Below are positions 49,702 to 64,000 of a DNA stretch of 64,000 bases, in pieces. A program made the translations under genes and the position numbers. The DNA is from Burkholderiales bacterium RIFCSPHIGHO2_12_FULL_63_20. GTDB lineage: Bacteria > Pseudomonadota > Gammaproteobacteria > Burkholderiales > Burkholderiaceae_C. Under the pieces are notes generated by a model. The model was not told the origin of the DNA. It saw only the letters and a program-made list of their open reading frames with translations, and did not search any database. The number at the start of each line of letters is the position of its first letter. Position 1 is the first letter of the stretch. The stretch covers positions 331,927 to 395,926 of the forward strand of contig MESA01000033.1 in assembly GCA_001770775.1 (NCBI GenBank), given 5' to 3'.

Positions 49702-50475
49702 GTGCTTCACAAACTACTCTCCGCCATCATCTCGCCACTAGGCACATCGTTGCTATTGGGCTTGTGCGCCTTGGCAGTGGGCCTCGTCGCGTCCACACCT
49801 CAACGGCGGCGTTTATCCGGCATCGTGGCAAGCTGTTCGCTCGCATGGCTGTGGCTCTGGTCTACCCCGCTGGCCAGCGAGGCCCTGCGCGGCCACATTG
49901 AGAGCCAAGCCGGCCCACGCAACTTGGTTGACGTTCCGGTAGCCCCGGTCGTTGTGGTCCTGGGTGGAGGAATCAGCGGGCCGCGGCCGCCCTTGCGCTC
50001 CACTCCCGACCTGGGCGCTTCAGCAGACAGAATGTGGCACGCAGCACGTCTATATCACGCCGGCAAAGCCACCAAGTTGTTGCTGTCTGGCGGTGTTGTG
50101 CGAACGGGTGATGGCAGTGAAGCGGAGGCCATGAAGCGCTTCTTGCTGGACCTGGGGGTGCCAAGCAGTGACATGTGGTTGGAGCAAAGCAGCGACAACA
50201 CCCGGAGCAACGCTCAACGCACAGCCGACTTGTTGCACGCCAAGGGCATCCACGAAATTACCTTGGTGACCTCTGCCCTGCACATGCCGCGTGCGAACAA
50301 GGAATTTGAAGCGGTGGGCCTCAAGGTGCAGCCAGCGCCAACAGACTTTGAGATCATTGACATGCCGTTTGACCTGTTGCGCATCGTGCCAGATACCGCG
50401 GCACTGCACGGCACCGCGCGTGCTTTCAAGGAATGGCTCGGTTTGCTCATGACAACTCCACGGACAAGCACATGA
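49702..50475 (+). CDS. YdcF/ElyC-like DUF218 protein
   Basis: A 257-residue protein with two N-terminal hydrophobic segments (SLLLGLCALAVGLVAS and GIVASCSLAWLWLWSTP) and a DUF218 domain. VVVVLGGGISGPRPP, ARLYHAGKATKLLLSGG, WLEQSSDNTRSNAQRTADLL and VTSALHMPRANKEF are the conserved phrases. ElyC/SanA-type proteins influence undecaprenyl-phosphate use and envelope polymer assembly. The GTG at 49702 is the start. Its stop overlaps the lasso cyclase start by 4 bases (50472-50475), linking the polysaccharide operon to the lasso cluster. Confidence 0.87.
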   Translation: MLHKLLSAIISPLGTSLLLGLCALAVGLVASTPQRRRLSGIVASCSLAWLWLWSTPLASEALRGHIESQAGPRNLVDVPVAPVVVVLGGGISGPRPPLRSTPDLGASADRMWHAARLYHAGKATKLLLSGGVVRTGDGSEAEAMKRFLLDLGVPSSDMWLEQSSDNTRSNAQRTADLLHAKGIHEITLVTSALHMPRANKEFEAVGLKVQPAPTDFEIIDMPFDLLRIVPDTAALHGTARAFKEWLGLLMTTPRTST

Positions 50476-52358
50476 GTGGGATTTACGGCCTCATCAGCCT
50501 GAACGAGCAAGCACCTGATGCCCAGGCATGGGTGCGCATGCAAGAGGCCATGCGCCTTTGGGGCACTGATGGCAATACCACTTGGCAGAGCCACCAAGGT
50601 GGCCTGGGGCAAGCACGCCTGCTCAATACACCAGAGGCGCGGTTTGACCAGATGCCCCGATGGGTAGAAGGCCCCAGCCTGGCCATCACTGTGGAAGCCC
50701 GCCTAGACAACCGTGACGAACTGTGCCGCGCCTTGCATATTCCATTGAGCGAGCAGGCACAGTTGCCCGACAGTGAATTGATCCTGCAGGCTTACTTGAA
50801 ATGGGGGGAGGCTTGCCCTGACCGCTTGTTGGGAGACTGGTCTTTCGCCATTTGGCACCCTGCAGCGCGCAAGCTGTTCATGGCTCGTGACCACCATGGC
50901 AACACCAGCTTGTGTTTCTGGCGCCATGGGCATCAGTGGGCATTCGCATCAGACCCGCTGGCCCTGTATGCGGCGGGCGCCCCCCGACGGCTCAATGAGC
51001 TGTTCTTGGGTCAATTGCTGATCACATGGCCGGCGTATCACGGTAAACAAACCATTGACCTGGACATTGAGCGACTCCCCCCCGCGCACGCCATGAGCGT
51101 GACGCCAGAGGGTGTGCGCAGTTGGCGCTATTGGGCGCTGGAAGACACGCCCGTTGAGCACCGCCGGGACCCCAGGGAATATGTGGAAGGCTTTTTGAGC
51201 ATCTACAGGCAAGCCACGGAAGCGCGCATGCGCAGCCTGCGACCGATCGGCGTCACCCTCAGTGGCGGACTGGATTCTGGCTCGGTGACAGCACTGGCCG
51301 CCAGCGCCCTGGCCGACCGCAACGAGCGACTGACCGCCTTCACCGCAGTGCCTCGGTACGACGCACAACCCGGAGTGGGCGCACGCCACTTTGGTGACGA
51401 AACCCAATTGGCATCTGCCACGGCAGCACGCTTCAACAACATAGATCACGTCTTTCTGAGCAGCGAGCACATCTCACCGCTGCAGGGGTTTCGACAGCAG
51501 TTGGCCAAGATGGCCGAGCCTGTGCATGCAGCCAGCAACCAGTTTTGGATGGAGGACGTGCTGCAGCAAGCACGCGAACGAGGACTGGGCACGCTTCTGA
51601 CAGGGCAAGGAGGCAACGCCACCGTCAGTTGGACGGGCGCACCTGCGCTGCGTTCTGTGGTGCAGGCTTGGCAACATGGCGGCGCCAAGGCGGTGGCTTT
51701 GCAAAAGCTGCCTTTTGCTACGCTCCGAGCAGCACACCATTTGCGAACGAGTTGGCTGGGATATCGGGTGGGCGATGGCACGGCCATCCATCCAGATTTT
51801 GAACGCCGCTTAGGCCTGACGGAGCAGCGCATCCAGGCCCTTGGCCGCGATTTGAGTGTGTCAGGCAGCATCCGAACACCACGAGACCAACGATTGGCCA
51901 CCGTCAAGCCCGGTGCGTCTCGATTGGGGGATCTGTGGGCTCGGCAAGGGGCCTCTGCCCACCTGGAGGTACGCGACCCCACTGTTGACAAACGTGTGAT
52001 GACCTTCACCATGTCGGTACCTGACGAAGTGTTCACCCCCACCCCCGACTGTGACCGTTGGCTCATCCGGGAGCCCATGCAGGGACTGATGCCAGACGAA
52101 GTCAGGCTCAACAATCGTAGGGGACGTCAGTCTGCGGATCTGGGCTTTCGCATGTTGGCGTGTGCACCAGAGGTGGAAGTCGCCCTGCAAGCTCTGGACG
52201 GCAGCATTGCGGCGCAATATGTGGATGTGGGCAAAATGCGCCAAGCTTGGACTGACTTGCAGAACAGTATCACCCCCACGAGCACCCATCGAGCCGGCAG
52301 CATTTTGCTCAGAGGTTTGATGGCGGCAGAGTTCATCAATGGCCTTGCAATCAGCTAG
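50472..52358 (+). CDS. Lasso peptide macrolactam synthetase (C protein), cluster 1
   Basis: A 628-residue member of the asparagine synthetase family that closes the macrolactam ring by adenylating an Asp/Glu side chain of the core peptide. It begins MSGIYGLISLN: Ser replaces the usual catalytic Cys2, so it cannot use the standard glutaminase site, as expected for lasso cyclases. The PP-loop LSGGLDSGSVTAL is near residue 263, and ARDHHGNTSLCFW, GDWSFAIW and NNRRGRQSADLGFRM are typical of the group. The ATG at 50472 overlaps the YdcF stop; an upstream in-frame ATG at 50433 lies inside YdcF and is unlikely. The precursor follows 50 bases later. Confidence 0.9.
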   Translation: MSGIYGLISLNEQAPDAQAWVRMQEAMRLWGTDGNTTWQSHQGGLGQARLLNTPEARFDQMPRWVEGPSLAITVEARLDNRDELCRALHIPLSEQAQLPDSELILQAYLKWGEACPDRLLGDWSFAIWHPAARKLFMARDHHGNTSLCFWRHGHQWAFASDPLALYAAGAPRRLNELFLGQLLITWPAYHGKQTIDLDIERLPPAHAMSVTPEGVRSWRYWALEDTPVEHRRDPREYVEGFLSIYRQATEARMRSLRPIGVTLSGGLDSGSVTALAASALADRNERLTAFTAVPRYDAQPGVGARHFGDETQLASATAARFNNIDHVFLSSEHISPLQGFRQQLAKMAEPVHAASNQFWMEDVLQQARERGLGTLLTGQGGNATVSWTGAPALRSVVQAWQHGGAKAVALQKLPFATLRAAHHLRTSWLGYRVGDGTAIHPDFERRLGLTEQRIQALGRDLSVSGSIRTPRDQRLATVKPGASRLGDLWARQGASAHLEVRDPTVDKRVMTFTMSVPDEVFTPTPDCDRWLIREPMQGLMPDEVRLNNRRGRQSADLGFRMLACAPEVEVALQALDGSIAAQYVDVGKMRQAWTDLQNSITPTSTHRAGSILLRGLMAAEFINGLAIS

Positions 52359-52397
52359 ACTCTACACTGTTCATACCTTTTTCTATCTCATTTACTC

Positions 52398-52404
52398 AAG
52401 GAAG
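52398..52404 (+). promoter_or_regulatory. Ribosome-binding site of lasso precursor 1
   Basis: AAGGAAG lies four bases upstream of the ATG at 52409. It is the strongest Shine-Dalgarno box near this short gene and supports the choice of start. The gap from the cyclase stop (52358) has no clear terminator or promoter. Confidence 0.7.
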
Positions 52405-52408
52405 CGTT

Positions 52409-52579
52409 ATGCAAAGCACTCAAGTCACGACTCCCTCGATGGGCCAAGATTCGACCGTGTCAACGGACGCGCGCTTGGTATGGGAAAGCCCCAAGCTGGA
52501 AAAACTGCATGTGAGTTTGGATACAGCGAACACCCTCGGATCTGGCGCCGATGGTGGCACCGGCGCAGTCACTCCTTGA
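52409..52579 (+). CDS. Lasso peptide precursor (A), cluster 1
   Basis: A 56-residue peptide gene with a perfect AAGGAAG four bases upstream. The leader (residues 1-40) contains WESPKLEKLHV, resembling the W..PKLE.L.V leader of paeninodin-type precursors. The predicted core is residues 41-56, NTLGSGADGGTGAVTP. Thr39 then sits at -2, the conserved leader-peptidase position, and the only downstream acid, Asp48, is residue 8 of the core, giving an 8-residue ring and an 8-residue tail. The alternative start at Gly44 would leave a 5-residue ring, too small. Asn at position 1 is unusual (Gly is common), so the cleavage site is tentative. Unlike paeninodin it ends in Thr-Pro rather than Ser. Found between the cyclase and kinase genes. 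Confidence 0.85.
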   Translation: MQSTQVTTPSMGQDSTVSTDARLVWESPKLEKLHVSLDTANTLGSGADGGTGAVTP

Positions 52580-52607
52580 TCGACTGACTCTGCCTCTCAC
52601 AAGAACA

Positions 52608-53582
52608 GTGTTTGATCACACACACACGCCAGCCGCCTCAGGCTCGCCTCAAACCCACCTCCATCGCGCATACGGACTGGTATGGTCGACACCGTTTCCT
52701 ATGCCGGAGTGGCCGCAGGCGAATCCAGGTATGCAAGCGGATGTGACGGTTCGGACGGCGGAGCTCTTTCTTGCCGGTAATAGCCTGCAATCCGCCGGTC
52801 CCTTGCGGCAAGTCAACTCGGAAGAAGCCCGTTTGGGCCTGCCCAATGTGGGCAAGATGTTGGTGCGCCAGGGACAAGAGGTCTTGTTCGACCGGTACCC
52901 AGGTGCCGACGACACCTTGGTGCGCTTGATGTTGGTCGGCCCCGCCGCTGCGCTGGTGCTGCACCAACGTGGCGTCTTGCCCTTGCACGCGAGTGGCATT
53001 CAGACCCCTGCCGGCGCCGTGTTGTTCATGGGGAACTCGGGAGCGGGCAAGTCCACGCTGCTGAACGCCTTCGTGCGACGCGGCTACCGCATGGTGTCCG
53101 AAGACTTGGCCGCCGTGCACCTGGATGACCAGGGGCACCCGTGGGTCTCGCCGGGCGTGCAGGTCACAAAGCTGTGGGCTGACAGTGCGGCGGCACTGGG
53201 GCAACACACGGACAGTTTGAGTCGCGTGCGCCCAGAACTGGAAAAGTTCATCGTCCCCGTCCCAACATCACAATTGGCGCAAAGGCAACTCCCGGTGCTG
53301 GCTGTGTACGCCCTGTCCACACATCAGAAACCCGACCTGCTGATCGAAGAACGACGAGACGTTCGAAAGTTCAACGCCTTGCTGGATCACACCTGGCAAA
53401 AACTGGTGGTGAAACGCATGGGGCTGCACGCCCACCACTTCAAGCTGGCTGCATCCGTGGCCAACAAGGTGCCCATTGTGCGAGTGTGCAGGCCTGAAGG
53501 TCAGTTTGCGCTCGACGCCATGCTGGACGCCCTGGAAGCGGATTTCCAGCAGCGCCAGGGGCCAGCACTAGAGTCTGCCTGA
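52608..53582 (+). CDS. HPr-kinase-like peptide kinase (K), cluster 1
   Basis: A P-loop kinase of about 324 residues related to the C-terminal domain of HPr kinase/phosphorylase. VLFMGNSGAGKSTLLNAF is the Walker A motif, and GYRMVSEDLAAVHLDDQGHPW is the following acidic Mg/catalytic segment typical of PadeK/ThcoK-type kinases. Those phosphorylate the C-terminal Ser of paeninodin-type precursors. This precursor has no C-terminal Ser, so Thr55, Thr51 or Ser45 is the likely target if the kinase is active. The longest frame starts at 52551 inside the precursor gene; the GTG at 52608 clears it and is my choice, with moderate certainty. The stop is coupled to the sulfotransferase ATG. Confidence 0.85.
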   Translation: MFDHTHTPAASGSPQTHLHRAYGLVWSTPFPMPEWPQANPGMQADVTVRTAELFLAGNSLQSAGPLRQVNSEEARLGLPNVGKMLVRQGQEVLFDRYPGADDTLVRLMLVGPAAALVLHQRGVLPLHASGIQTPAGAVLFMGNSGAGKSTLLNAFVRRGYRMVSEDLAAVHLDDQGHPWVSPGVQVTKLWADSAAALGQHTDSLSRVRPELEKFIVPVPTSQLAQRQLPVLAVYALSTHQKPDLLIEERRDVRKFNALLDHTWQKLVVKRMGLHAHHFKLAASVANKVPIVRVCRPEGQFALDAMLDALEADFQQRQGPALESA

Positions 53583-54418
53583 TGCACAAGCTGGTCTGGC
53601 TGTCGTCTTACCCAAAATCAGGCAACACATGGGTCAGGCTGTTTCTGGCCGCTTACACCAAGCCTGAGCGCCCCGGGGTCGACATCAACAACATCGACAT
53701 GAGCCTTCATGCTGGTAACCGGGATATGGTTGACAGGGTCATTGGCGTGCAGTCTTCAGACCTGACCGCAGCCGAGATTGAGCGCTACCGCCCCGAGGTG
53801 TATCGGCAACTTGCCGCTGAAGCCGACGAGCCCTTGTTCATCAAGGTGCACGACCGGTGGCGACAGCACGCAGAAGGATCCGCCATTTTCCCAGCGGATG
53901 CCACTTTGGCCACGATCTACATCGTACGAGACCCTCGTGCCGTGGCTCCGTCGTATGCCAATCACTACGGGCTGAGTGTGGATGCCGCCATTGAACGCAT
54001 GAGCGACCCTGGCAACGACATTCACCCGCAAACCGACCGGCTTCGACGCCAACTTCATCAGCCCATGGGCTCGTGGAGCCAGCATGTGCTTAGTTGGCTA
54101 GACCAAACCGAATTGCCCGTTCTGCTCTTGCGGTACGAGGACATGCACGCCGACCCCGAGAGCAGCTTCGCCAAGATTGTGGCGGCATCCGGTTTGACGT
54201 TGGACTCCGCTCGCCTGTCCAAAGCCTTGGCTGAGACGCGTTTTGATCGTCTTCAGCAGCAAGAGAGTGAAGCAGGCTTCAAGGAACGCCCTCGCGCCTC
54301 AACCCGTTTTTTCCGGCGCGGCGAGGTCGAGAGCTGGCGCGAGGAGTTGACGCCAGCCCAATGCGAACGCATTGTGAATGAGCATGGCCTGGTCATGCGA
54401 CGCCTTGGCTATTTGTAA
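53582..54418 (+). CDS. PAPS-dependent sulfotransferase, cluster 1
   Basis: A 278-residue cytosolic sulfotransferase. LVWLSSYPKSGNTWVRLFLAA contains the 5'-phosphosulfate loop (YPKSGNTW), and TIYIVRDPRAVAPSYANHYG contains the 3'-phosphate-binding region (RDPR..A.S...H). FYRRGEVESW-like phrase FFRRGEVESWREEL at the end is the usual GXXGXXK-type region, weakly conserved. Its place between the kinase and B1 genes, one base overlap with the kinase stop, argues that it sulfates the lasso peptide rather than the polysaccharide, most likely on a Ser/Thr hydroxyl. There is no Tyr in the predicted core. Confidence 0.87.
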   Translation: MHKLVWLSSYPKSGNTWVRLFLAAYTKPERPGVDINNIDMSLHAGNRDMVDRVIGVQSSDLTAAEIERYRPEVYRQLAAEADEPLFIKVHDRWRQHAEGSAIFPADATLATIYIVRDPRAVAPSYANHYGLSVDAAIERMSDPGNDIHPQTDRLRRQLHQPMGSWSQHVLSWLDQTELPVLLLRYEDMHADPESSFAKIVAASGLTLDSARLSKALAETRFDRLQQQESEAGFKERPRASTRFFRRGEVESWREELTPAQCERIVNEHGLVMRRLGYL

Positions 54419-54444
54419 AACGCTTTGATTTCCCGACTTGCACC

Positions 54445-54729
54445 ATGACTGACATCACCTTGGCCACACGAGTGGTACGTTCCAGCGATATCTTGACGAA
54501 CACCATCGACGATGCGCTGGTGATGATGGACATGGAGGGCGGGCACTATTTCAGCCTGAACCGCATTGGGTCTGACATTTGGGAGCGCATTGCGGAGCCC
54601 ACCCCAGTCGCCGATTTGTGTGCGCAATTGGTCAAGGCATATCAGGTAGAGCCAGATACCTGCCAAGCCGAGGTATTGGCTTTGCTCAAGGACATGGCCC
54701 AAGGTGGGCTGATCACGGCGCAGGGCTGA
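54445..54729 (+). CDS. PqqD-like leader recognition protein (B1), cluster 1
   Basis: A 94-residue RiPP recognition element of the PqqD fold. It binds the precursor leader and brings it to the B2 peptidase. The pattern MMDMEGGHYFSLNRIGSDIWERI is the core of lasso B1 proteins (G.Y..LN..G..IW), and VADLCAQLVKAYQVEPDTCQ plus VLALLKDMAQGGLI completes the winged helix. It ends 4 bases before the B2 start; no strong Shine-Dalgarno is visible, so translation may be coupled. A second copy lies at 62001. Confidence 0.9.
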   Translation: MTDITLATRVVRSSDILTNTIDDALVMMDMEGGHYFSLNRIGSDIWERIAEPTPVADLCAQLVKAYQVEPDTCQAEVLALLKDMAQGGLITAQG

Positions 54730-54733
54730 AACC

Positions 54734-55207
54734 GTGTGGCGCACCGGATTGCGCAAGGCTCACACATTGAGCCGCCAGCCAGCATTTGTCTGGCTCTGGT
54801 TGCCGCCAGTCTGGTGCTTGCTGGGCCTGAGCAAGGCCCTGATCATGCTCGTGGCTTTTCGACGTTTGTCCAACGTGCTTGGGCAAAACATGGGGGTCAC
54901 GTCGTGGGTGCCCCTGCTGTCTGAGCCGCAAATTGCACACGCGCGGCACATCGGTCAAACCATCAAAATCGCGTCAAGGTACACGCCTTGGGAGTCGAAC
55001 TGCTTTCCCCAAGCCCTGGTTGCCAGGCTGCTACTGGGGTGGTTCGGGGTACCTTATGCTTTGTCATTCGGCTTGATGCGAGACACGGTGAGCACAGATT
55101 TGAAGGCACACGCGTGGGTTACGGCAGGCCCCATTCCTGTCACGGGTGGACGCAATGATGGACAGTACGCTGTGGTCGGGGTGTTTGTCTCACCTGGCTT
55201 GCTCTGA
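54734..55207 (+). CDS. Lasso leader peptidase (B2), transglutaminase-like, cluster 1
   Basis: A 157-residue Cys protease of the lasso B2 family, which removes the leader peptide. The likely catalytic residues are Cys90 in PWESNCFPQALVARLLL, His126 in KAHAWV and Asp142 in GGRND, matching the Cys-His-Asp triad of McjB-type peptidases. A hydrophobic segment (VWLWLPPVWCLLGLSKALIML) near residues 19-40 is usual in proteobacterial B2 proteins. The GTG at 54734 follows the B1 stop by 4 bases, and the ABC exporter starts 2 bases after its stop. Confidence 0.88.
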   Translation: MWRTGLRKAHTLSRQPAFVWLWLPPVWCLLGLSKALIMLVAFRRLSNVLGQNMGVTSWVPLLSEPQIAHARHIGQTIKIASRYTPWESNCFPQALVARLLLGWFGVPYALSFGLMRDTVSTDLKAHAWVTAGPIPVTGGRNDGQYAVVGVFVSPGLL

Positions 55208-55209
55208 CC

Positions 55210-56967
55210 ATGAAGGCCGTCAAAGCATTCGGCTGGTTGCTCCGGCAAGCCCCCACTCAGCTGACGCTGGGTTTGTTTGTGACGTCGATTTTGTCGGCCC
55301 TGACAGAAGGCATTGGGCTGCTGCTGCTACCGTCTTTGTTGCAGGCACTGCAAGCGGCTGAAGCGGGCACCCAGGACATCGCGCGCGCATTGATCAACGG
55401 CTTGCAGCAATTCGGCTTCAAGTCGCCTACCGAAGCGCTATTGATCGCGTTTGTGGCATTGATGGGATTGCGCAGTGCAGTGGTGTTTGCGCGCGATCAG
55501 CTGGGCATGCGTCTCCAACATCAGTTGGTGGACAAGTTGCGTGCCCAGTGCTTTGAGGGCCTGCTCTCCGCAGAGTGGCGTTGGCTGAGTGGTAACAAGC
55601 AGTCCACGCACGAAAGTGTCTTGCTGACGGACATCAATCGCGTGGGCATGGGGCTGCACTTTGGCATTGGATTGGTCAGCAGCCTCGTCACGCTGACCGC
55701 GTATGTCCTGACGGCGTTGGCCTTGTCTTGGAGCTTGACCGCGCTGGCTTTGCTGTCAGGTGGTTTGTTGATGGGCATGTTGGCCCGGCAACAAGGTGCG
55801 GCAATCCGACTGGGTCAGAACTTGAGCGCAGCACACCGCGGGCTGCACGACGTCACGCGCGAAGGACTGTCAGGCGTGAAGCTCGCCAAGATTTTGGGCG
55901 TGACACATGAGTTGATCAGACGCATGAGCCTGACCTTGGGAAACATGCGCTCGCAACAGTTGGCTCATACCCGCAGCAACGGTTTGTCCAGAGCATGGTT
56001 TCAGACAGGCGGTGCCGCTCTGCTGGCTGCATACGTTTATGTGGGCTTGCATACATGGCACACACCTGTTCCCGTGTTGCTGACCCTTGTACTCATTTTC
56101 GGCCGTGTGATCCCCATGCTGGGCACATGTCACCAGCAGGCACACCAATGGCTGCACAGTTTGCCTGCCCTGAGAGGCGTGCAGGAGTTGCTGCATGACT
56201 GCAAGACCCATGCAGAGCCCGTTGCTGAACCTGCCGCAACGGACATGGAGCACGCTCCCCTGACACTGGACCATCAACTGTGCCTTCAGGATGTGACGAT
56301 ACGGCACACGGGGCGCTCCGAAGCGGCACTGGGCAAGGTCAACGCTTGCTTCAAGGCCCGTACGACAACGGCCATCATGGGGCCCTCCGGAGCAGGTAAA
56401 AGCACATTGGCAGATGTGCTGATGGGGTTGCTTGCGCCTGACGAAGGCACGGTTTTGCTGAATGGCAAGCCACTGACGGCAGCGCACCGCGCTGCTTGGC
56501 GACGGCAGGTCAGCTATGTACCTCAAGAGGTTTTTCTGTTCCATGACAGCATCCGAGCCAACCTGCGCTGGGGCAAGCAAAACGCCACGGATGCTGAAAT
56601 GCGAGAAGCCTTGCAATGCGCATCTGCAGATTTTGTTTTCGCGCTGCCGCGCGGGCTGGACACGCAGGTAGGTGACGGGGGCGTGCGTTTGTCAGGCGGT
56701 GAACGGCAACGCATCGCATTGGCCAGAGCGTTGTTGCAGCGACCAACCTTGCTGATTCTGGATGAGGCAACGAGTGCCCTGGACCTTGAGAATGAACAAC
56801 GCGTACGCGATGCCATTGAGCGCCTTCACGGCGACTTGACCGTCGTGATCATCGGGCATCGCCTGCCGACCTTGGAACATGCCGATCAGGTCCTGGTTTT
56901 GCAGGCAGGGCAAGTGCATGCGCAAGGGACCTGGGACCAAATACGTCAGATGCAGATCAAGACATGA
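55210..56967 (+). CDS. ABC exporter (D), cluster 1
   Basis: A 585-residue half-size ABC exporter: six membrane segments in the first ~320 residues, then an ATPase domain with Walker A GPSGAGKSTLADVL, signature LSGGERQRIALARALLQ, Walker B LLILDEATSALD and VIIGHRLPTLEHAD as the switch region. It has no N-terminal C39 protease domain, as expected where B2 handles leader removal. In lasso clusters D exports the mature peptide and gives immunity. Its stop overlaps the nucleotidyltransferase start by 4 bases. Confidence 0.92.
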   Translation: MKAVKAFGWLLRQAPTQLTLGLFVTSILSALTEGIGLLLLPSLLQALQAAEAGTQDIARALINGLQQFGFKSPTEALLIAFVALMGLRSAVVFARDQLGMRLQHQLVDKLRAQCFEGLLSAEWRWLSGNKQSTHESVLLTDINRVGMGLHFGIGLVSSLVTLTAYVLTALALSWSLTALALLSGGLLMGMLARQQGAAIRLGQNLSAAHRGLHDVTREGLSGVKLAKILGVTHELIRRMSLTLGNMRSQQLAHTRSNGLSRAWFQTGGAALLAAYVYVGLHTWHTPVPVLLTLVLIFGRVIPMLGTCHQQAHQWLHSLPALRGVQELLHDCKTHAEPVAEPAATDMEHAPLTLDHQLCLQDVTIRHTGRSEAALGKVNACFKARTTTAIMGPSGAGKSTLADVLMGLLAPDEGTVLLNGKPLTAAHRAAWRRQVSYVPQEVFLFHDSIRANLRWGKQNATDAEMREALQCASADFVFALPRGLDTQVGDGGVRLSGGERQRIALARALLQRPTLLILDEATSALDLENEQRVRDAIERLHGDLTVVIIGHRLPTLEHADQVLVLQAGQVHAQGTWDQIRQMQIKT

Positions 56968-58205
56968 CCGACAAAACACATTTGCAAAACCTGTTGTTGA
57001 ATTTGCTGTCGCCGTCTGCCTCGGTGACACAAGATCAACTGGAGGCGTTGAAAGAAGCAGATTGGGAGAACATGTTGGTGATGGTTCGCCAACATCGTCT
57101 CGCACCTTTGATGCATTGGCAACTGAGCCATGCGCACCCTGCGCTGAAGGTGCCTGAGCGCATCGCGCTTGCGCTGTCCACCGCGTTCAAGAACGCCTCG
57201 TTTCGCAGCTTGACTTGGCAAACAGCATTGGTGCGTCTCCATCAACTGTTAGATGCAGCCGGCATTCCTTATGCAGCGCTGAAGGGCAGCTACCTTGCGT
57301 ACCATGTGTACCCACACCCTGCACTGCGGCCCATGCGCGATGTGGACATCGTCACGCCCAAAGAACACGTGCTTGAAGCGTACCGAGTGCTCCAGCGGGG
57401 TGGCCTGACCCGCCTGGATGAATACCCGGGAGAGCCAGAAGCGGCCATGTTGGTACACAAGCACCTGCCCCCACTCAAAATGCCAGGTGCGCCCATTCAA
57501 GTTGAATTGCATGCGCGCTTGCTGGAGTCGCCCGAGGGCAACTCAGTAAGCTGCGATTTGTCGGAGGAGCCAGGCTTTTGGTCGCGCTGCGTGACAGGCA
57601 ACATCGGCACGACACCCGTGAGATTCGAGCCCACCACAGACCTGCTGTTTCACTTGATTGTGCACTCCGTGTACGAGCACCAACTCAACAATGGCCCCTT
57701 GCTCCTCAGCGACATGGCGTATTTGGTGAACACGCACGAGATCGATTGGCCACTTTTTTGGCGGTTGGCTGCAGATCGCCAGCAGACGCGTGGATGTGTA
57801 TTGGCGCTGATGCTGACGCAACGGTACTGGCCACTGCGGCACGTGGCATGGGGTGACGCTCAGACAATGTGTGATGACCTGACAGATAGCACGCTGGATG
57901 CAACTGCAGCGCTGATACTCAGAAACACGCAAGCTCGCAGTTCAGTGGCGATGAACAGCCGCTTGCAATTGGCCGGTGGCTGGAGCAACAAGGCTCGCGT
58001 CTTGGCCAGCAAGTTGATGCCATCCAGAACACGAATCGCAGCCACGTACCCACCGACTCAGCGGGCGTGGCATCTGTATGCGTATTACCCTGCCGAATGG
58101 CTGCGCTTGTTCAGGGTCTGGCGAGAAGAATCAAAACGCGTCGCACCGACGGATCAACACGAAGAGGTGCGGCAGATGACCTCTTTGTCTCAATGGCTCA
58201 ACTAA
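56964..58205 (+). CDS. NTP_transf_5-type nucleotidyltransferase (N), cluster 1
   Basis: A 413-residue protein. AGIPYAALKGSYLAYHVYP and HPALRPMRDVDIVTPKEHVLEA form the nucleotidyltransferase core: the LKG phrase and the DVD metal site are typical of the NTP_transf_5 family. Relatives occur in kinase-containing lasso clusters. In pseudomycoidin biosynthesis the homologous protein is reported to add hexose to the phosphate, so a post-phosphorylation step is plausible here too. A long C-terminal region (WPLFWRLAADRQQTRG, AWHLYAYYPAEWLRLFRVW) is also family-typical. The last gene of cluster 1, ending just before a two-way hairpin terminator. Confidence 0.85.
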   Translation: MTDKTHLQNLLLNLLSPSASVTQDQLEALKEADWENMLVMVRQHRLAPLMHWQLSHAHPALKVPERIALALSTAFKNASFRSLTWQTALVRLHQLLDAAGIPYAALKGSYLAYHVYPHPALRPMRDVDIVTPKEHVLEAYRVLQRGGLTRLDEYPGEPEAAMLVHKHLPPLKMPGAPIQVELHARLLESPEGNSVSCDLSEEPGFWSRCVTGNIGTTPVRFEPTTDLLFHLIVHSVYEHQLNNGPLLLSDMAYLVNTHEIDWPLFWRLAADRQQTRGCVLALMLTQRYWPLRHVAWGDAQTMCDDLTDSTLDATAALILRNTQARSSVAMNSRLQLAGGWSNKARVLASKLMPSRTRIAATYPPTQRAWHLYAYYPAEWLRLFRVWREESKRVAPTDQHEEVRQMTSLSQWLN

Positions 58206-58244
58206 ACTGAGTGCGATCGGGGTCGCCGCGTATGGAGTACGCAC

Positions 58245-58266
58245 TTAGTTTCTAGCAGGAAACTAA
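58245..58266. terminator. Bidirectional hairpin terminator between the two lasso clusters
   Basis: An 8-bp perfect stem TTAGTTTC (58245-58252) with loop TAGCAG and GAAACTAA (58259-58266) lies between convergent gene ends. It overlaps the stop codon of the JmjC gene. A second imperfect inverted repeat (CTGAGTGCG near 58207-58215 with CGCACTTAG near 58240-58248) encloses the region. No long T run is visible, so it may be factor-assisted. Confidence 0.6.
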
Positions 58267-59423
58267 CACTCAAAGTCGATCTCCCAAGTGCGTTCGCCAT
58301 AGTCTGATGAACTCAGCGCGAACAGCAGGCTCTTTTGGATCAGGCTATTAACTGCGTCCCATGCGCCAACCTCTGGGAGCGCTGTAGTCAATTGTCGCAG
58401 CGTCATTGACCCGACAGTGTGCAGAAGGTCTATGACCGCCCACTCCCCCGCCGAGAGAATGAAGGGCCAGCCGGCAGGCGTGATTCGATAACGGCCATCT
58501 TCTAATCGCTCTGCCGGAATGCGCCGTCGAAGAGTAGATGCGAGCAGTGTGTCATCACATGCAACGATGCCCAAATTGTTAGGCTGATAAGGAGGGCGTG
58601 CATGATCTAGTTGACTCAACAATTCGGTTGGATCACACGCATCCACCATGCCACGTAACCATGCTAAGTGAGCAGTAAAATCAGCATCAGATTGGACTGG
58701 CATATCGCGACGGGTGAACTCATTTTTCGGATCGGTTTGCAGCAATGCTGGCAATTCACGAACCTGCGGCGGCCTGAGGGCCACGGTGAGATGCAGCGAT
58801 GAAGGTCCTCGAAGCTCAGCAGCGTGAACATCTCCCCTAGGCACAAACAGGATATCGCCTGGTTGCATAACGCAACTCCACTCAGGCTTTGGCAGCTTGT
58901 CCGGGGTATAAGCTCGGCTTTTGGTAGGAAATGGATCCAATGCACCCCAGCATCGCCATTCTTTGGTACCGTAGACCTGCAGCACCAAGACATCGTGATT
59001 GTCGGCATGGGGATTGAACGCACTGGCGCTTCCATGACTCCAATAGGCATTCGTCCAAGACTCCATGCGCCAACGCCGCTCAATGGCGGCGTTTAACGCC
59101 CCGATGGCTGGCACAGCCTCATCTATCGCGTTGATCACGAAGCTGAGCCCTCGCTCGCACATAGCCGGCAAAACATCGGTACGGAGTCGCCAATTCTCTC
59201 CGGTGCGCACCAACAACATATCCAGCGGCACTTCGCGGCCCATTTGACAGACCTTTGTTACCCCTCTCAGCAGACGTTCAGCCGAAATCAAATGAGGAAT
59301 CAGCAACGACGGCAGAAAATTCGGGAAACGGTCGGCATCTCCAGATAAGTGGCAACGTGTATTGGTTTGCCGGGCAGCAACCAACCGGGCATCCTCAGCG
59401 ACGCCTATAATCCGATTCAACAT
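58263..59423 (-). CDS. JmjC-type 2-oxoglutarate/Fe(II) oxygenase, ROXA-like
   Basis: A 386-residue cupin hydroxylase. The Fe(II)-binding triad is visible as His139-Ala-Asp141 in FNPHADNHDVLVLQVYGTKEW and His200 in FVPRGDVHAAELRG, the arrangement of RoxA/YcfD and MINA53-type JmjC enzymes, which hydroxylate amino-acid side chains. A C-terminal winged-helix-like part (EWAVIDLLHTVGSMTLRQL) is also RoxA-like. The start is ATG 59423, with AGAGGA nine bases upstream; the frame extends to 59477 inside the carbamoyltransferase. It lies 16 bases after that gene, likely in one transcript. Probable substrate: the second lasso peptide or another partner; not shown. Confidence 0.88.
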   Translation of the reverse strand: MLNRIIGVAEDARLVAARQTNTRCHLSGDADRFPNFLPSLLIPHLISAERLLRGVTKVCQMGREVPLDMLLVRTGENWRLRTDVLPAMCERGLSFVINAIDEAVPAIGALNAAIERRWRMESWTNAYWSHGSASAFNPHADNHDVLVLQVYGTKEWRCWGALDPFPTKSRAYTPDKLPKPEWSCVMQPGDILFVPRGDVHAAELRGPSSLHLTVALRPPQVRELPALLQTDPKNEFTRRDMPVQSDADFTAHLAWLRGMVDACDPTELLSQLDHARPPYQPNNLGIVACDDTLLASTLRRRIPAERLEDGRYRITPAGWPFILSAGEWAVIDLLHTVGSMTLRQLTTALPEVGAWDAVNSLIQKSLLFALSSSDYGERTWEIDFEC

Positions 59424-59432
59424 ATTTACCAA

Positions 59433-59438
59433 TCCTCT
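59433..59438 (-). promoter_or_regulatory. Ribosome-binding site deciding the JmjC start
   Basis: The minus-strand box AGAGGA (59433-59438) lies nine bases upstream of the ATG at 59423 and just after the carbamoyltransferase stop (59440-59442). It decides for 59423 over the longer frame from 59477. Confidence 0.7.
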
Positions 59439-59439
59439 G

Positions 59440-61173
59440 TCAAGTTGCGGAGGGGGATGATGTTGCAGGACTCCCAATGGTTGCCCCAGTTTTGGTCACC
59501 AGCCAGTCCCCTATGGCCATCGCATGCAGCCCAGTTTCGTTAAACATGGTAACTGCTTGGGTCGGTGTTTCGATCATTGGTTTCCCTCGGCGGTTCAGCG
59601 ATGTGTTGAGCAACATACTAATTCCTGTCCGGCGGCCAAATTCGGTCAGCAGGGCATGAAAGCGGGCATCGGTTTGTCGTGTGACAGTCTGTACGCGGGC
59701 AGTTCCATCAACATGGGTCACCGCAGGTATTCGAGACCGCCATTCTTCACGAACCCTTACCACCAGCAGCATATAAGGACTTTCACCTTCCAGCTCAAAA
59801 AAGCGATTCGCATCTTCAGCCAAAACAGACGGGGCGAAGGGTCGAAAATCCTCACGGAACTTGACCTCAAGATTGATGAAATCTCTCAACTCGGACCGGC
59901 GGGGGTCGCCCAGAATACTTCTGTGACCCAGCGCTCTGGGGCCGAACTCAGCCCCCCCCTGGAACCATGCAACCGCTTTCCCAGCCACCAGTAAATCAGC
60001 CACCTCACCAACCAAGTCGACTGGACGTTTTACCAAAACTCCGTCAACAAGTCCGGAAAATGCACGCAGAATGTCTTCCTCACCATAAACTCGGCCAAAA
60101 AAAGTGCCCCCGCCATGGGGCATCCGGGGGTGCCCCAGAACGCGAGTCCAACCATGGAAAGCACAGCCAATGGCCAACCCGGAATCATCTGCAGCAGGCG
60201 GGACGAAAAGGCGCGTAAATGCAGTTTCCTCAAGAATGCGCCGATTGGCCACTGCATTTAGAGCCACCCCGCCCGAAAAACATAGGTCTGAATACTTGGC
60301 TAGCTTTTGCCGGTGCCGGACCAACTCAAGCAACGCCTCCTCCACCTGGGTCTGTACGCGGCGTGCAAGATTGGCAAAATAGGGAAAGCGGGCTTTGAAA
60401 TCATCCTCCCCAAGGCAGGGGGATTGATGATCATTGACCCATTCATGATTGACCAAGCTTTGTCCATCAATAAAATTGAAAATCGGACCATCGGCCGGAT
60501 TTAATCTGCCGTATGGCGCCAGCCCCATGAGTTTACCCATGTCAGAGGTGCTGGCAAAACAGTACTGGCTAGCACTCATGTACTGCCCACCGATTGAATG
60601 CCAGGTAATGGGTGGATGCAAAGGATGGCGCGACCCATCATGACGCCCTAGGGGCGAAAAGTCCTTGTGCACTGTCTGAACATGGCCATCACCGGCCGAA
60701 TAAAAGCTGTCTTTTTCACACCAAAGCCAAGGAACACTGATGGGCGGGCGCTCGGCGATAAAGGCTCCATCCAGATCGGAACATTCATCGTAAGGGCTCC
60801 CACATCCGTCCGCTACAAGGATGGATGCGTGATCGAAAGGGCTGAGGAAAAACGCCGCAGTGGCATGGGCAAGATGATGCGAAATGGTTACAACAGGGAC
60901 ACCTTCCGGCAAATATCGCCGGCCTTTGTACCAAGTATTTCCGTATTTAAAATTACCAAAATTGGCATTCTGTACGATGAGATCCAAATCATTCGCACGA
61001 ATACCGGCCGTATCCAGACAATGACTGATCGTAAAGAGGTCATTCCCACCGTCATTTTTCTTTGCGGTGATCCTTTCCTTCTCCACGCCAGCAATGATCT
61101 GACCATCCCGCAGCAAACAGGCTGACCCGTTGTGCGAGAGTCCGGTTCCGAGAACATAAATGGGTTTTGACAT
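59440..61173 (-). CDS. NodU/TobZ-type O-carbamoyltransferase
   Basis: A 577-residue carbamoyltransferase that would move a carbamoyl group from carbamoyl phosphate, through carbamoyl-AMP, to a hydroxyl. The N-terminal Kae1-like domain has the metal motif HHLAHATAAFF at residues 99-109 and LVADGCGSPYDE. The C-terminal domain has WFQGGAEFGPRALGHRSILG and a following NTSLNRRGKPMIETP, both signature phrases of NodU, CmcH and TobZ. The gene is in a probable two-gene unit with the JmjC oxygenase. Its neighbours are lasso genes rather than sugar genes, although the polysaccharide locus lies 8-30 kb away and carbamoylated sugars are known. The start ATG at 61173 has only a weak upstream box. Confidence 0.9.
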   Translation of the reverse strand: MSKPIYVLGTGLSHNGSACLLRDGQIIAGVEKERITAKKNDGGNDLFTISHCLDTAGIRANDLDLIVQNANFGNFKYGNTWYKGRRYLPEGVPVVTISHHLAHATAAFFLSPFDHASILVADGCGSPYDECSDLDGAFIAERPPISVPWLWCEKDSFYSAGDGHVQTVHKDFSPLGRHDGSRHPLHPPITWHSIGGQYMSASQYCFASTSDMGKLMGLAPYGRLNPADGPIFNFIDGQSLVNHEWVNDHQSPCLGEDDFKARFPYFANLARRVQTQVEEALLELVRHRQKLAKYSDLCFSGGVALNAVANRRILEETAFTRLFVPPAADDSGLAIGCAFHGWTRVLGHPRMPHGGGTFFGRVYGEEDILRAFSGLVDGVLVKRPVDLVGEVADLLVAGKAVAWFQGGAEFGPRALGHRSILGDPRRSELRDFINLEVKFREDFRPFAPSVLAEDANRFFELEGESPYMLLVVRVREEWRSRIPAVTHVDGTARVQTVTRQTDARFHALLTEFGRRTGISMLLNTSLNRRGKPMIETPTQAVTMFNETGLHAMAIGDWLVTKTGATIGSPATSSPSAT

Positions 61174-61498: not shown

Positions 61499-61737
61499 GA
61501 TGGGAATGCCAGCAGCGCCCCCTGGACTCGCGGGTGCTGACGCACCACCGCGCTGTCGACGCCCTCTAGCAACCAGTGCATCTGCTCGAACGCCTGTGTG
61601 GAGACCACCGCCTCACGCGATCAGCTGAAGCGGTCCTGCTCAAGCAGCTCGAGCAGCAGCCAAAAATCGTTGCGGTCCGCCTCAAAAAAAGTCGGTTGAA
61701 CTGACACTTCCAGCCTTGTCCGATTTACACTAATAGA
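61499..61737. other. Non-coding stretch left of precursor 2 with degraded reading frames
   Basis: This stretch, with 61174-61299, belongs to the 625-base gap between the carbamoyltransferase start and the second precursor. On the minus strand a frame reads QPTFFEADRNDFWLLLELL, then a stop, then EAVVSTQAFEQMHWLLEGVD. It looks like coding sequence broken by a stop, possibly another mobile-element remnant, but I could not name a family. No RNA gene is visible. Confidence 0.4.
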
Positions 61738-61798: not shown

Positions 61799-61957
61799 AT
61801 GACACCTCATGATCCTGCATTCAAGAACGTGGACCACCAACAACCGCTTGACGAGCGACTGCCCTATGAAGCGCCGCAACTGGTCGACCGCGGCGTGGTA
61901 TCAGAGCTCACTCAATCTAACGGCAACAACAATGGAGCAGATGCAGCCTATTCTTGA
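61799..61957 (+). CDS. Lasso peptide precursor (A), cluster 2
   Basis: A 52-residue peptide gene with GGAG six bases before its ATG. The leader carries the classical lasso motif Y23-E-A-P26-Q-L28-V-D-R-G32, i.e. YxxPxLxxxG, read by the B1 protein. ELTQ (36-39) precedes the core, putting Thr38 at the conserved -2 position. The predicted core is residues 40-52, SNGNNNGADAAYS. Its only acid, Asp48, is core residue 9, so a 9-residue Ser1-Asp9 macrolactam with the tail AAYS is predicted. Asn-rich ring (Asn2, 4, 5, 6) and C-terminal Tyr-Ser offer many sites for the neighbouring JmjC and carbamoyltransferase enzymes. Ser at position 1 is less common than Gly. The B1 gene follows 43 bases later. Confidence 0.9.
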   Translation: MTPHDPAFKNVDHQQPLDERLPYEAPQLVDRGVVSELTQSNGNNNGADAAYS

Positions 61958-61987
61958 TTCCATATTTTGAGAATTGCCAAAAAATTT

Positions 61988-61992
61988 AGGGA
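61988..61992 (+). promoter_or_regulatory. Ribosome-binding site deciding the second B1 start
   Basis: AGGGA lies eight bases before the ATG at 62001 and favours that codon over the in-frame TTG at 61974, which has no clear box. Confidence 0.65.
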
Positions 61993-62000
61993 TTAACTCC

Positions 62001-62273
62001 ATGCTGAAGCGAAATCCTTCTGCGCTATGGACCGAACTAGGTTCCGCAGTAGCTATACTTAACATCACCTCTGGTCGCTACTTCGAAATTCAGGGAACCG
62101 GCACGGATCTCTGGCGCTGGTTGGAGCAGCCCTGCGATATAGAGAGTTTGATTGCGCGCCTGATTCTAAAATACAGCGTCGAACCCGAACAAGCCCACCG
62201 AGATATTTTGGTCTTTCTCAATCAATTGCGCAGTAATGAGTTGCTTGAAGATGCCACCGCATCTTCTTTCTAA
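62001..62273 (+). CDS. PqqD-like leader recognition protein (B1), cluster 2
   Basis: A 90-residue PqqD-fold protein, the recognition element for the adjacent lasso precursor. LWTELGSAVAILNITSGRYFEIQGTGTDLWRWLEQP contains the B1 pattern (A.LN..SGRYFE....G..LW..L), followed by IESLIARLILKYSVEPEQAHRDI and FLNQLRSNELL. It differs strongly from the B1 at 54445, consistent with a separate system reading a YxxP-type leader. The start is ATG 62001, with AGGGA at 61988-61992. The cyclase starts 2 bases after its stop. Confidence 0.9.
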   Translation: MLKRNPSALWTELGSAVAILNITSGRYFEIQGTGTDLWRWLEQPCDIESLIARLILKYSVEPEQAHRDILVFLNQLRSNELLEDATASSF

Positions 62274-62275
62274 CG

Positions 62276-64000
62276 ATGCGCGCGCAGGCCTTTGCTGGAT
62301 GGGTCGCATTATCCGGCTCTCTGCCTGATATCGAACGTCTCGATTTTTGGCGGCATTGGCTCAATTCGCACAACCACGATGCTGAATTAGTTTCAGTCAG
62401 TCACGGCTGGCTGCTGCATTGGAATACAACACCGGCACACAATTCTGGAGCCACTGTTAACGGCAATCTCGGAAAGGATGCGTCCGAAAGTGACATCCTG
62501 ACCGGGGACTGGTGTTGCGAAGCAGGCCCCGCTACTGGCGCACACCTGGCTGTTGCCTCCGCGCTCATGCCCGCCGGAGGCAGGCCCCCTAATTATCCTC
62601 AAATTGCAAATGGCTTTGCTTTCTGCCACTGGCAAGCAGAGGGTCGAATTCTGACGCTTGCCACTGATCATTTGGGATGTCGTCCAATTTATTTAATACG
62701 GCAAGACGACCAGATATTGTTTTCAACAGACTTGCCGCTACTACTCGAAGCGCCGGGAATAAGTTGCCGACTGAACATGCGGAGCATTGTGAATCGGCTG
62801 TTGGCGGCTGATGCTGGCCGCCCTGACGATACCCTCTTCAGTGAAGTACAGCGCATCTCAGCTGGGCACCTCTTGAGACTGACAGCGACAGAAACCTCAT
62901 GCGTGCCACTTCCTGATGCGTCCACGTCGGATTCCGGTCCTCGCCTAAGCGAATCAAAAGATGCATCCCAGACCCTGAGGGAATGCCTGATTGCCTCCGT
63001 GCACGGCAGCTTGGACGGCGCTGAGACACCGGCAGTTCATCTCAGCGGCGGGCTGGATTCCGCAGCTCTGGCCTGTATCGCAGCGCGAGCGTTGAGGCAG
63101 CAGGGCCGTACGCTGCTCGCGCTGTGCTCTGTTCTGCCTGATGGCGCCGAGCGAACCTCTCAAGAAACAGATGAACGCGAATACATTGCACATGTACTGG
63201 AACAAGAGCCGAACATCAAGCCTATCTGGGTCATTATGCCGGCCGACGAGCATCCTTTCGCAGCGTTACCGCAGTGGTTCTCGATCGGGGGGCAAGCGCC
63301 ATACAATACCGTGACCCATGCGCTCACTCGGCTCGGCGAGGCGGGCCGAGCCCATGGCGTAGATGTTGTGCTTAACGGATTTGGAGGCGATCTTTTCGCC
63401 TCAGCTAAGTTTTATGGCACGACTTTTTCGCTCTTTCAGCAACAGCGCTGGTTCTCAGCATTTGTCCAACTGCTCTCGGCGGTCGTAAAGAGTCCGCGAG
63501 CAATCGGTGCTGAATTACACCCGTTGTTTCGGCGACTAGTCATGCCTCAGGCTCCAAAAGGTCGCCCGAAGCTTTTAACCGAAGTAGCATGGCAGGGCTT
63601 CTTGGCTGAAACCAGCGCGCCATATCAGCATGCCGGTGCTGCGAGGCGGCGGCTTAATATTTTAAGCGAACAGCAGAGAATGGCCGAGATACTCAAGCCG
63701 GGCCACCTAGATTTACCCGTGAGCGGGATGTGCCATTTCATGTCCAGGGCCTACGGACAGACGTTGAGTCTGCCGCTACTGGATCCCCGCGTACTGAAGG
63801 TGGCCCTCCACGCCGATCCACGCGAATTTACACGGGACGGTCTCGACCGCAGCCTCTTTCGCCGCGCGATGATCGGAATACTGCCGGAAGCTAACCGCTT
63901 GCGACCCAACAAGGGCTCACCCTTTGACCCGGCCCTGATGTCCCATCTTGTTGCCAACCGCCCGACCCTCAGAGAGTGGGCTCTGGATGACACACGGCCC
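62276..64000 (+). CDS. Lasso peptide macrolactam synthetase (C), cluster 2, truncated by window edge
   Basis: An asparagine-synthetase-family protein open from the ATG at 62276 to the window end (575 residues visible). It starts MRAQAFAGWVALSG, with no Cys2, so it has lost the glutaminase nucleophile like other lasso cyclases. The N-terminal half (TLATDHLGCRPIYLIRQDDQILFSTDLP) is the degenerate glutaminase-like domain. The PP-loop PAVHLSGGLDSAALACIAA is near residue 256. LNGFGGDLFASAKFYG and NRLRPNKGSPFDPALM are later conserved phrases. It follows B1 by 2 bases. B2 and an exporter would be expected just to the right. Confidence 0.9.
   Translation, partial: MRAQAFAGWVALSGSLPDIERLDFWRHWLNSHNHDAELVSVSHGWLLHWNTTPAHNSGATVNGNLGKDASESDILTGDWCCEAGPATGAHLAVASALMPAGGRPPNYPQIANGFAFCHWQAEGRILTLATDHLGCRPIYLIRQDDQILFSTDLPLLLEAPGISCRLNMRSIVNRLLAADAGRPDDTLFSEVQRISAGHLLRLTATETSCVPLPDASTSDSGPRLSESKDASQTLRECLIASVHGSLDGAETPAVHLSGGLDSAALACIAARALRQQGRTLLALCSVLPDGAERTSQETDEREYIAHVLEQEPNIKPIWVIMPADEHPFAALPQWFSIGGQAPYNTVTHALTRLGEAGRAHGVDVVLNGFGGDLFASAKFYGTTFSLFQQQRWFSAFVQLLSAVVKSPRAIGAELHPLFRRLVMPQAPKGRPKLLTEVAWQGFLAETSAPYQHAGAARRRLNILSEQQRMAEILKPGHLDLPVSGMCHFMSRAYGQTLSLPLLDPRVLKVALHADPREFTRDGLDRSLFRRAMIGILPEANRLRPNKGSPFDPALMSHLVANRPTLREWALDDTRP

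Follow-up and report, generated by a model that had tools for sequence, protein, structure and literature searches.

A JmjC oxygenase and carbamoyltransferase gene pair linked to a lasso peptide operon: candidate tailoring enzymes in a Burkholderiales bacterium

Which product is served by a JmjC-type oxygenase and a NodU/TobZ-type carbamoyltransferase whose genes lie side by side between two lasso peptide systems? The question is raised by a stretch of 64,000 nucleotides (the window) on contig MESA01000033.1 (positions 331,927 to 395,926) of Burkholderiales bacterium RIFCSPHIGHO2_12_FULL_63_20 (GCA_001770775.1). The initial annotation had described two adjacent enzyme genes on one strand, 16 bases apart, between two lasso systems, an arrangement borne out by the open reading frames (ORFs), the Pfam domains and the sequence itself. 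Comparison shows the pair linked to the operon of the second system, lasso system 2, in two distant bacteria and in two arrangements, and in the window as part of one repeat-bounded block. It probably decorates the lasso-2 peptide in a way that we did not find described for the lasso class. In the explanation that we favour, with a probability of roughly 0.55, the two proteins would be tailoring enzymes of lasso system 2, the oxygenase hydroxylating a ring asparagine and the transferase O-carbamoylating it.

Linkage of the pair to a lasso operon

The carbamoyltransferase (CarbT; 59440..61173, minus strand; 577 residues) carries PF16861 (E 8e-70) and PF02543 (E 2e-30). Sixteen bases separate its stop codon from the ATG at 59423 of the gene for the JmjC protein (58263..59423, minus strand; stop at 58263; 386 residues), an iron(II)/2-oxoglutarate (Fe/2OG) oxygenase by its PF08007 domain (E 4.2e-21) and a proposed peptidyl-Asn hydroxylase. 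The proposed substrate, lasso precursor 2 with the core SNGNNNGADAAYS, is encoded at 61799..61957 on the plus strand. It exceeds the cut-off of the NCBIfam lasso leader model NF033521 (23.7 bits against 19), is 50% identical to a precursor in Niveispirillum, and has in its leader both the YxxP motif and the Thr at -2 (YEAPQLV...LTQ-SNGN). By its genes, the product of lasso system 2 would be a lasso peptide, for which a threaded lariat is predicted.

Two lines of comparison connect the pair to this operon. Within the contig, blastn of L003 (a same-contig stretch reaching past the window) against itself revealed a 39-bp direct repeat (95% identity, E 5e-11) with its left copy at 58168..58206, where the lasso-1 nucleotidyltransferase gene ends, and its right copy 12.4 kb onward at L003:14575-14613 (window numbering 70648-70686). 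The repeats enclose a 12.4-kb block that takes in the pair together with the complete lasso-2 operon, from the JmjC gene to the last cytochrome P450 gene, and leave system 1 outside save the end of its last gene. The pair has a G+C content of 0.535, compared with 0.607 over window positions 1-43000, and the block looks like an insertion behind lasso system 1. Beyond the contig, a CarbT pattern scan of a genome contig collection covering 84,980 species yielded 22 loci, of which only one is close (79% identity), in the alphaproteobacterium Niveispirillum sp. SYP-B3756 (L005); the rest reach at most 47%. The Niveispirillum CarbT is directly followed by a JmjC gene (63%) and accompanies an operon collinear with lasso 2, with identities of 35% for PqqD, 38% for the cyclase, 37% for the kinase, 36-44% for the SQHop_cyclase-like protein, 27% for the first P450, 46% for the methyltransferase and 45% for the second P450. 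The pair there lies at the opposite end of the operon and is convergent with it, whereas in the window it is divergent.

Linkage in two arrangements argues for a functional association rather than passive synteny. It is because the 39-bp repeat bounds the pair together with the lasso-2 operon, and because the Niveispirillum pair adjoins the orthologous operon, that we assign the pair to lasso system 2; the association of the pair with lasso genes is thus well supported by sequence, and the earlier link of the pair to precursor 2 gains support from both lines. Moreover, conservation is higher in the pair than in the operon, which suggests that it may transfer on its own among related lasso operons. 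Homologous pairs consistently away from lasso genes, or accompanied by sugar genes alone, would have spoken against the link proposed in the initial annotation; within the reach of the searches, the sole other close pair found sits within the orthologous lasso-2 locus.

Searches for further copies were less productive. At the level of the order, one of 399 genomes matched CarbT at E <= 1e-120, namely the window's own, with no second orthologue, and a search of plasmids gave 309 records, all below 60% identity and the best-ranked at 37.3%. For JmjC, matches at E <= 0.001 occur in 277 of the 299 genomes of the family, only the window's own being strong and the next best standing at E 1.1e-11; across the phylum, 5 of 398 genomes match at E <= 1e-18, the four others belonging to one family and being 30-34% identical over part of the length (3.4-3.7 kb were read around each). 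In L061-L064, from one alphaproteobacterial family, JmjC relatives lie (at least in L061 and L062) beside small proteins that by eye have twin-arginine-translocation-like signals and Asp-rich tails. A viral scan for additional JmjC relatives confirmed none of 13 pattern matches.

The operon itself continues from the precursor with a PqqD-type leader-binding protein, B1 (61974..62273, plus strand; PF05402 E 4e-16; NF033536 56.9 bits, under the cut-off of 80), and an Asn-synthase-like lasso cyclase (62276..64000, plus strand, running past the window edge; PF00733 E 6.8e-23; NF033535 E 2.8e-43, below cut-off), whose full ORF of 626 residues occupies L003:6203-8083. The contig extends 23.8 kb beyond the window, and about 6 kb of this carries genes for an HprK-like kinase, a SQHop_cyclase-like protein, a P450, a methyltransferase and a second P450 (L003:8080-14064, window numbering 64153-70137). 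The SQHop_cyclase-like gene is broken by a run of 31 Ns, and its label is weak (E 5.5e-11 for the piece in this operon, 0.01 in Niveispirillum, no Pfam match in the related locus L095). Related sets of HprK-like kinase, SQHop_cyclase-like and P450 genes occur in Niveispirillum, Tistrella and the genome G768. At the end of the operon lies a small protein gene (L003:14056-14268, minus strand; window numbering 70129-70341), which by eye we take to be Nif11-like; the copies tested have no Pfam match, and the small protein of the Tistrella locus L085, used as a query, matched in L003 (E 8e-5) and L095 (E 0.006) and nowhere else; its copies adjoin these operons, and none was recovered in Niveispirillum.

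Lasso system 1 (50433-58205) comprises a cyclase, precursor, HprK-like kinase, sulfotransferase, PqqD, B2 leader protease, ATP-binding cassette (ABC) transporter and nucleotidyltransferase, with the cyclase, PqqD and transporter named by eye and similarity rather than by Pfam; its precursor matched no NCBIfam model at E <= 0.1. Its B2 (54734..55207, plus strand; NF033537 over cut-off) is the sole B2 match in the assembly, which is 97.49% complete; the lasso-2 operon has none, and the system-1 enzyme may serve it in trans. The Niveispirillum operon likewise lacks a B2, the two found in that genome lying on different contigs from the pair, and in both genomes the leader may be removed in trans by the B2 of another cluster. 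Further, the sulfotransferase of system 1 (53582-54418) and an adenosine 5'-phosphosulfate (APS) kinase gene just past the inserted block (L003:14605-15246) may be one sulfation pathway split by the insertion.

The enzymes, the core and a proposed reaction order

Both enzymes have metal-binding motifs that look intact. In JmjC, HAD occupies residues 139-141 and RGDVH begins at 196 and ends in His200, and the metal triad HxD...H (His139, Asp141 and His200) is invariant in all four aligned sequences; CarbT has HHLAH at 99-103, EFGPRALG at 409 and NTSLN at 523. We take HAD/RGDVH and HHLAH to be the catalytic residues, and the HxxxH of NodU/TobZ carbamoyltransferases, here HHLAH, binds metal. Both Pfam domains and this motif mark CarbT as a member of that family, with carbamoyl transfer to a hydroxyl predicted, and it scores below the cut-off of the NCBIfam NodU equivalog (177 bits against 1000). 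Its alignments to the solved GdmN, 7xb6 and TobZ (E 1e-67 to 4e-71) begin at residues 192, 206 and 262, respectively, and end at 560-561; the substrates of these three are small molecules such as antibiotics.

The best solved matches of JmjC are the ribosomal oxygenases RoxA/YcfD, NO66 and MINA53. A housekeeping RoxA/YcfD orthologue was considered and rejected: the window JmjC matches the solved L16 arginine hydroxylases only over about 110 residues (E 8e-7 to 4e-6), whereas a separate copy elsewhere in the genome (G000:C7) matches them over about 300 residues, most of its length (E 7e-41). The predicted structure of JmjC is poor (mean predicted local distance difference test score, pLDDT, of 45.7), and its Foldseek matches to YcfD and NO66 lend weak support. 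A two-sequence model of the C-terminal domain suggests strands followed by three helices, for which Foldseek returned nothing at E <= 0.001.

It is the comparison of precursor cores that bears on which residue might be modified. The cores of the window (SNGNNNGADAAYS) and Niveispirillum (SNGNDDGSDSMYS) share 8 of 13 residues, namely S1, N2, G3, N4, G7, D9, Y12 and S13. Related operons without the pair were sought by following the SQHop_cyclase-like gene, which led to a chromosomal locus (L085) of Tistrella mobilis (species inferred) with the core SGGSGPGSDNNYS and genes for PqqD, a cyclase, a kinase, a SQHop_cyclase-like protein and P450s; the second P450 gene is broken across two frames. This stretch has no methyltransferase, JmjC or CarbT gene, and the genome has no CarbT at E <= 1e-30. 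Its core keeps six of the eight shared residues and loses N2 and N4. In another such set (G768 C7), PqqD and the kinase-to-P450 genes accompany a core ending in DYS, and the 19.9 kb read contain no lasso cyclase. Taken together, the cores are suggestive of a C-terminal Tyr-Ser that goes with the kinase/P450 set and of Asn2 and Asn4 going with the pair.

Asparagine is the better candidate because Asn2 and Asn4 are the sole residues common to both pair-bearing cores yet missing from the Tistrella core. Among nine hand-aligned precursors, Asn4 occurs in three of four JmjC-bearing clusters and in none of the five whose stretch has no JmjC gene (p = 0.048); the position was picked once the cores had been seen, only two of the five comparators (L085 and L096) have a lasso cyclase, and L098 was left out as having no identified precursor, so that the association of Asn4 with JmjC is only suggestive. 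That Asn2 or Asn4 is the modified residue we put forward tentatively, at somewhat less than even odds, an estimate lowered slightly because the Tistrella comparison genome has JmjC genes elsewhere. The direct carbamoylation of Ser1, Tyr12 or Ser13, which had been offered earlier as an alternative, found no support: all three residues are conserved where the locus lacks the pair, and a C-terminal Ser is, in the part of PMC9266682 available to us, a known target of lasso kinases.

The chemistry that we infer would run as follows. Guided by the PqqD leader-binding protein, and with Fe(II), O2 and 2-oxoglutarate, JmjC would act on the linear precursor, hydroxylating the side chain of one or both of the ring asparagines, Asn2 and Asn4. 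TobZ draws its carbamoyl group from carbamoyl phosphate via carbamoyl adenylate (carbamoyl-AMP), and CarbT would by the same route place a carbamoyl on the new hydroxyl before the leader is removed. B2 would then cut off the leader in trans, the cyclase would join Ser1 to Asp9, and the kinase would act on Ser13. The parts of this scheme differ in strength: the pair very likely acts on the lasso-2 product, JmjC likely hydroxylates the peptide, and the balance tips only slightly towards the transferase acting on the product of JmjC.

Relatives elsewhere and competing explanations

The neighbourhoods of CarbT relatives give indirect support to the order of hydroxylation followed by carbamoylation that the initial annotation had proposed. 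In a tree of 21 rows, which left out L021 (broken frame) and L026 (partial match), the window CarbT falls within a clade of ten (support 99/98), three of them close Pedobacter relatives. An iron-oxygenase gene is adjacent or one gene away at nine of the ten loci (JmjC at two, Asp_Arg_Hydrox at six, TauD at one; none in Yersinia), as against none of the 13 loci outside the clade by the same queries (Fisher p = 3.4e-5 for nine of ten against none of 11 tree rows). Three of the six Asp_Arg_Hydrox neighbours were tested and confirmed by Pfam, the other three being assigned by similarity, and Pfam found no oxygenase among eight neighbours from six of the 13 outside loci. It is conceivable, though we hold it rather less probable than not, that one CarbT clade combines with interchangeable iron oxygenases (JmjC, Asp/Asn beta-hydroxylase, TauD) in a family of cassettes that make O-carbamoylated hydroxy-amino acids in peptides, here a lasso with carbamoylated hydroxy-Asn in its ring. 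Near the CarbT and Asp/Asn hydroxylase genes of five Bacteroidota loci (L006, L007, L010, L011 and L057) lie tail-collar-like genes, PF07484 being confirmed for one in L006, and a protein with FeS_assembly_P and PqqD domains (L023:11952-12590, Nitrosopumilus) adjoins a distant CarbT relative.

JmjC relatives also occur with lasso genes in the absence of CarbT. A tblastn search of plasmids gave 118 records, six covering at least 80% of JmjC, of which four were inspected (H1, H2, H3 and H5). On Azospirillum sp. TSH100 p1 (34%) and Tistrella mobilis pTM3 (32%), the JmjC gene comes straight after that of a WxxP lasso precursor, and the neighbourhood holds a cyclase, a PqqD and a kinase; a B2 was found in the TSH100 stretch and not in that of pTM3. 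Neither stretch has CarbT, and at E <= 1e-30 none is present anywhere on the TSH100 plasmid or in the Tistrella genome. Three genes annotated as 'tail fiber protein' adjoin the TSH100 cluster. Two Streptomyces matches are preceded by an ORF of 43-45 residues and followed by an aldo/keto reductase gene, with no annotated lasso gene in the stretches shown.

Several observations weigh against the favoured explanation. An IS66 TnpB-like remnant (61530..61678; DNA 74.5% identical to an annotated IS66 tnpB region of a Variovorax plasmid) parts the pair from precursor 2, and nearness within the window alone means little. The full pair is found at only two loci. JmjC stands in the two plasmid lasso clusters without CarbT, and of the seven JmjC matches that 385 genomes of the Tistrella class gave at E <= 1e-30, only one is lasso-linked, pTM3 itself, the other six showing no lasso genes by the queries used in the stretches of about 20 kb read. 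The asparagines are likewise an imperfect guide: L096 has Asn2 without the pair, pTM3 has JmjC and a core in which neither position 2 nor position 4 is Asn, and the genome of the Tistrella locus L085 has two JmjC relatives elsewhere (one on a plasmid, one 2.4 Mb away), which makes it free of CarbT and not of JmjC. Homology of the JmjC C-terminal domain to a RiPP recognition element (RRE; RiPP, ribosomally synthesized and post-translationally modified peptide) received a probability of 0.8% in a PqqD comparison with shallow profiles. Further, the oxygenase queries were drawn from the CarbT clade itself and favour it, and six Bacteroidota CarbT loci have no match to the lasso cyclase, PqqD, B2 or precursor queries, so that the clade is not lasso-specific and its substrates would be wider than lasso peptides.

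Some of these points feed alternatives. Both enzymes could act on the lasso-2 product separately, JmjC hydroxylating it and CarbT capping an encoded Ser1, Tyr12 or Ser13 or a hydroxyl installed by a P450, as would suit JmjC occurring without CarbT in two lasso clusters, the two P450s of the operon that could install other hydroxyls, and StdF, which modifies an encoded Lys before any hydroxylation (PMC13174530, in the part available). We nevertheless regard separate action as unlikely, given that the pair-less Tistrella locus keeps all three encoded residues, that both close CarbT copies found adjoin a JmjC gene, and that the wider clade so regularly has an oxygenase nearby.

A target outside the lasso peptide, be it a polysaccharide, a housekeeping protein or a terpenoid produced by the SQHop_cyclase-like protein and the P450s, would make the pair a chance neighbour or hitchhiking cargo. 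NodU/TobZ enzymes classically act on small molecules, the Bacteroidota relatives keep company with tail-collar and hydroxylase genes rather than lasso genes by the queries used, the window has, upstream, genes that by eye resemble those for exopolysaccharides, and the mobile-element remnant stands beside the pair. Even so, chance hardly explains why a bacterium of a different class has the same pair and operon, rearranged, with a core so alike, and JmjC relatives directly follow lasso precursors elsewhere; we consider such a target distinctly improbable. Service to lasso system 1, whose last gene ends 57 bases from the JmjC stop, was rejected as highly improbable, since the 39-bp repeat sets a boundary between that system and the pair and the Niveispirillum pair accompanies a lasso-2 operon. 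Hydroxylation and carbamoylation of the lasso-2 peptide by the pair thus remains the explanation that we prefer.

If true, it would add a new side-chain modification of lasso peptides and a two-enzyme cassette possibly transferable to other peptides. Moreover, nature supplies related cores from loci that have the pair and from loci that lack it, and from these the modified residues can be predicted directly and cheaply.

Comparison with known systems

Hydroxylation is known in lasso peptides, and a carbamoylated lasso peptide was not found in print in the open-licence full texts of PubMed Central, as far as these were covered. Nor did that literature, within the same limits, yield a lasso peptide with a JmjC and CarbT pair, in keeping with the initial annotation, which had recognised none. 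A 2026 review (PMC13352647) contains neither 'carbam' nor 'JmjC', and a 2022 review (PMC9266682) neither 'carbamoyl' nor 'JmjC'.

The individual elements nevertheless have counterparts. Fusions of RREs with JmjC (PF08007) proteins have been reported from fish and algae, the bacterial homologues lying in RiPP-like contexts, and RRE fusions with carbamoyltransferases are reported as well (PMC12710340). The PF08007 domain is shared with RoxA/YcfD, NO66 and MINA53, which, unlike the role proposed here, hydroxylate ribosomal proteins. Closer in substrate class is BipG/BpmG, a JmjC RiPP hydroxylase of biphenomycin (PMC12707348, PMC12257519); in the accounts excerpted, and likened by description, it resembles the window JmjC as a JmjC-domain enzyme of a ribosomal peptide and differs in that the peptide is not a lasso and the target is ornithine.

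Among lasso systems, the paeninodin and pseudomycoidin clusters combine a kinase with a C-terminal Ser, as lasso 2 does, and PadeK phosphorylates a C-terminal Ser; JmjC, carbamoyltransferase and P450 each have no occurrence in that review (PMC9266682). In the same source, CanE of canucin A is an Fe/2OG hydroxylase that takes the linear lasso precursor as its substrate with the help of B1, which is what we propose for the window JmjC, whereas its product is a beta-hydroxy-Asp at the C-terminus and a carbamoyl step does not figure in the account (PMC9266682).

For CarbT the nearest parallel is StdF, a NodU-like carbamoyltransferase fused to a peptidase, which carbamoylates a RiPP. The excerpted report terms RiPP carbamoyltransferases exceedingly rare, with crocagin the sole other well-characterised case (PMC13174530). 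StdF, like CarbT as proposed, is NodU-like and belongs to a ribosomal peptide pathway that also hydroxylates; it differs in N-carbamoylating a Lys before hydroxylation by a multinuclear non-heme iron-dependent oxidative enzyme (MNIO), that is, in the reverse order, with another oxygenase and in another class of peptide (PMC13174530, in the part available).

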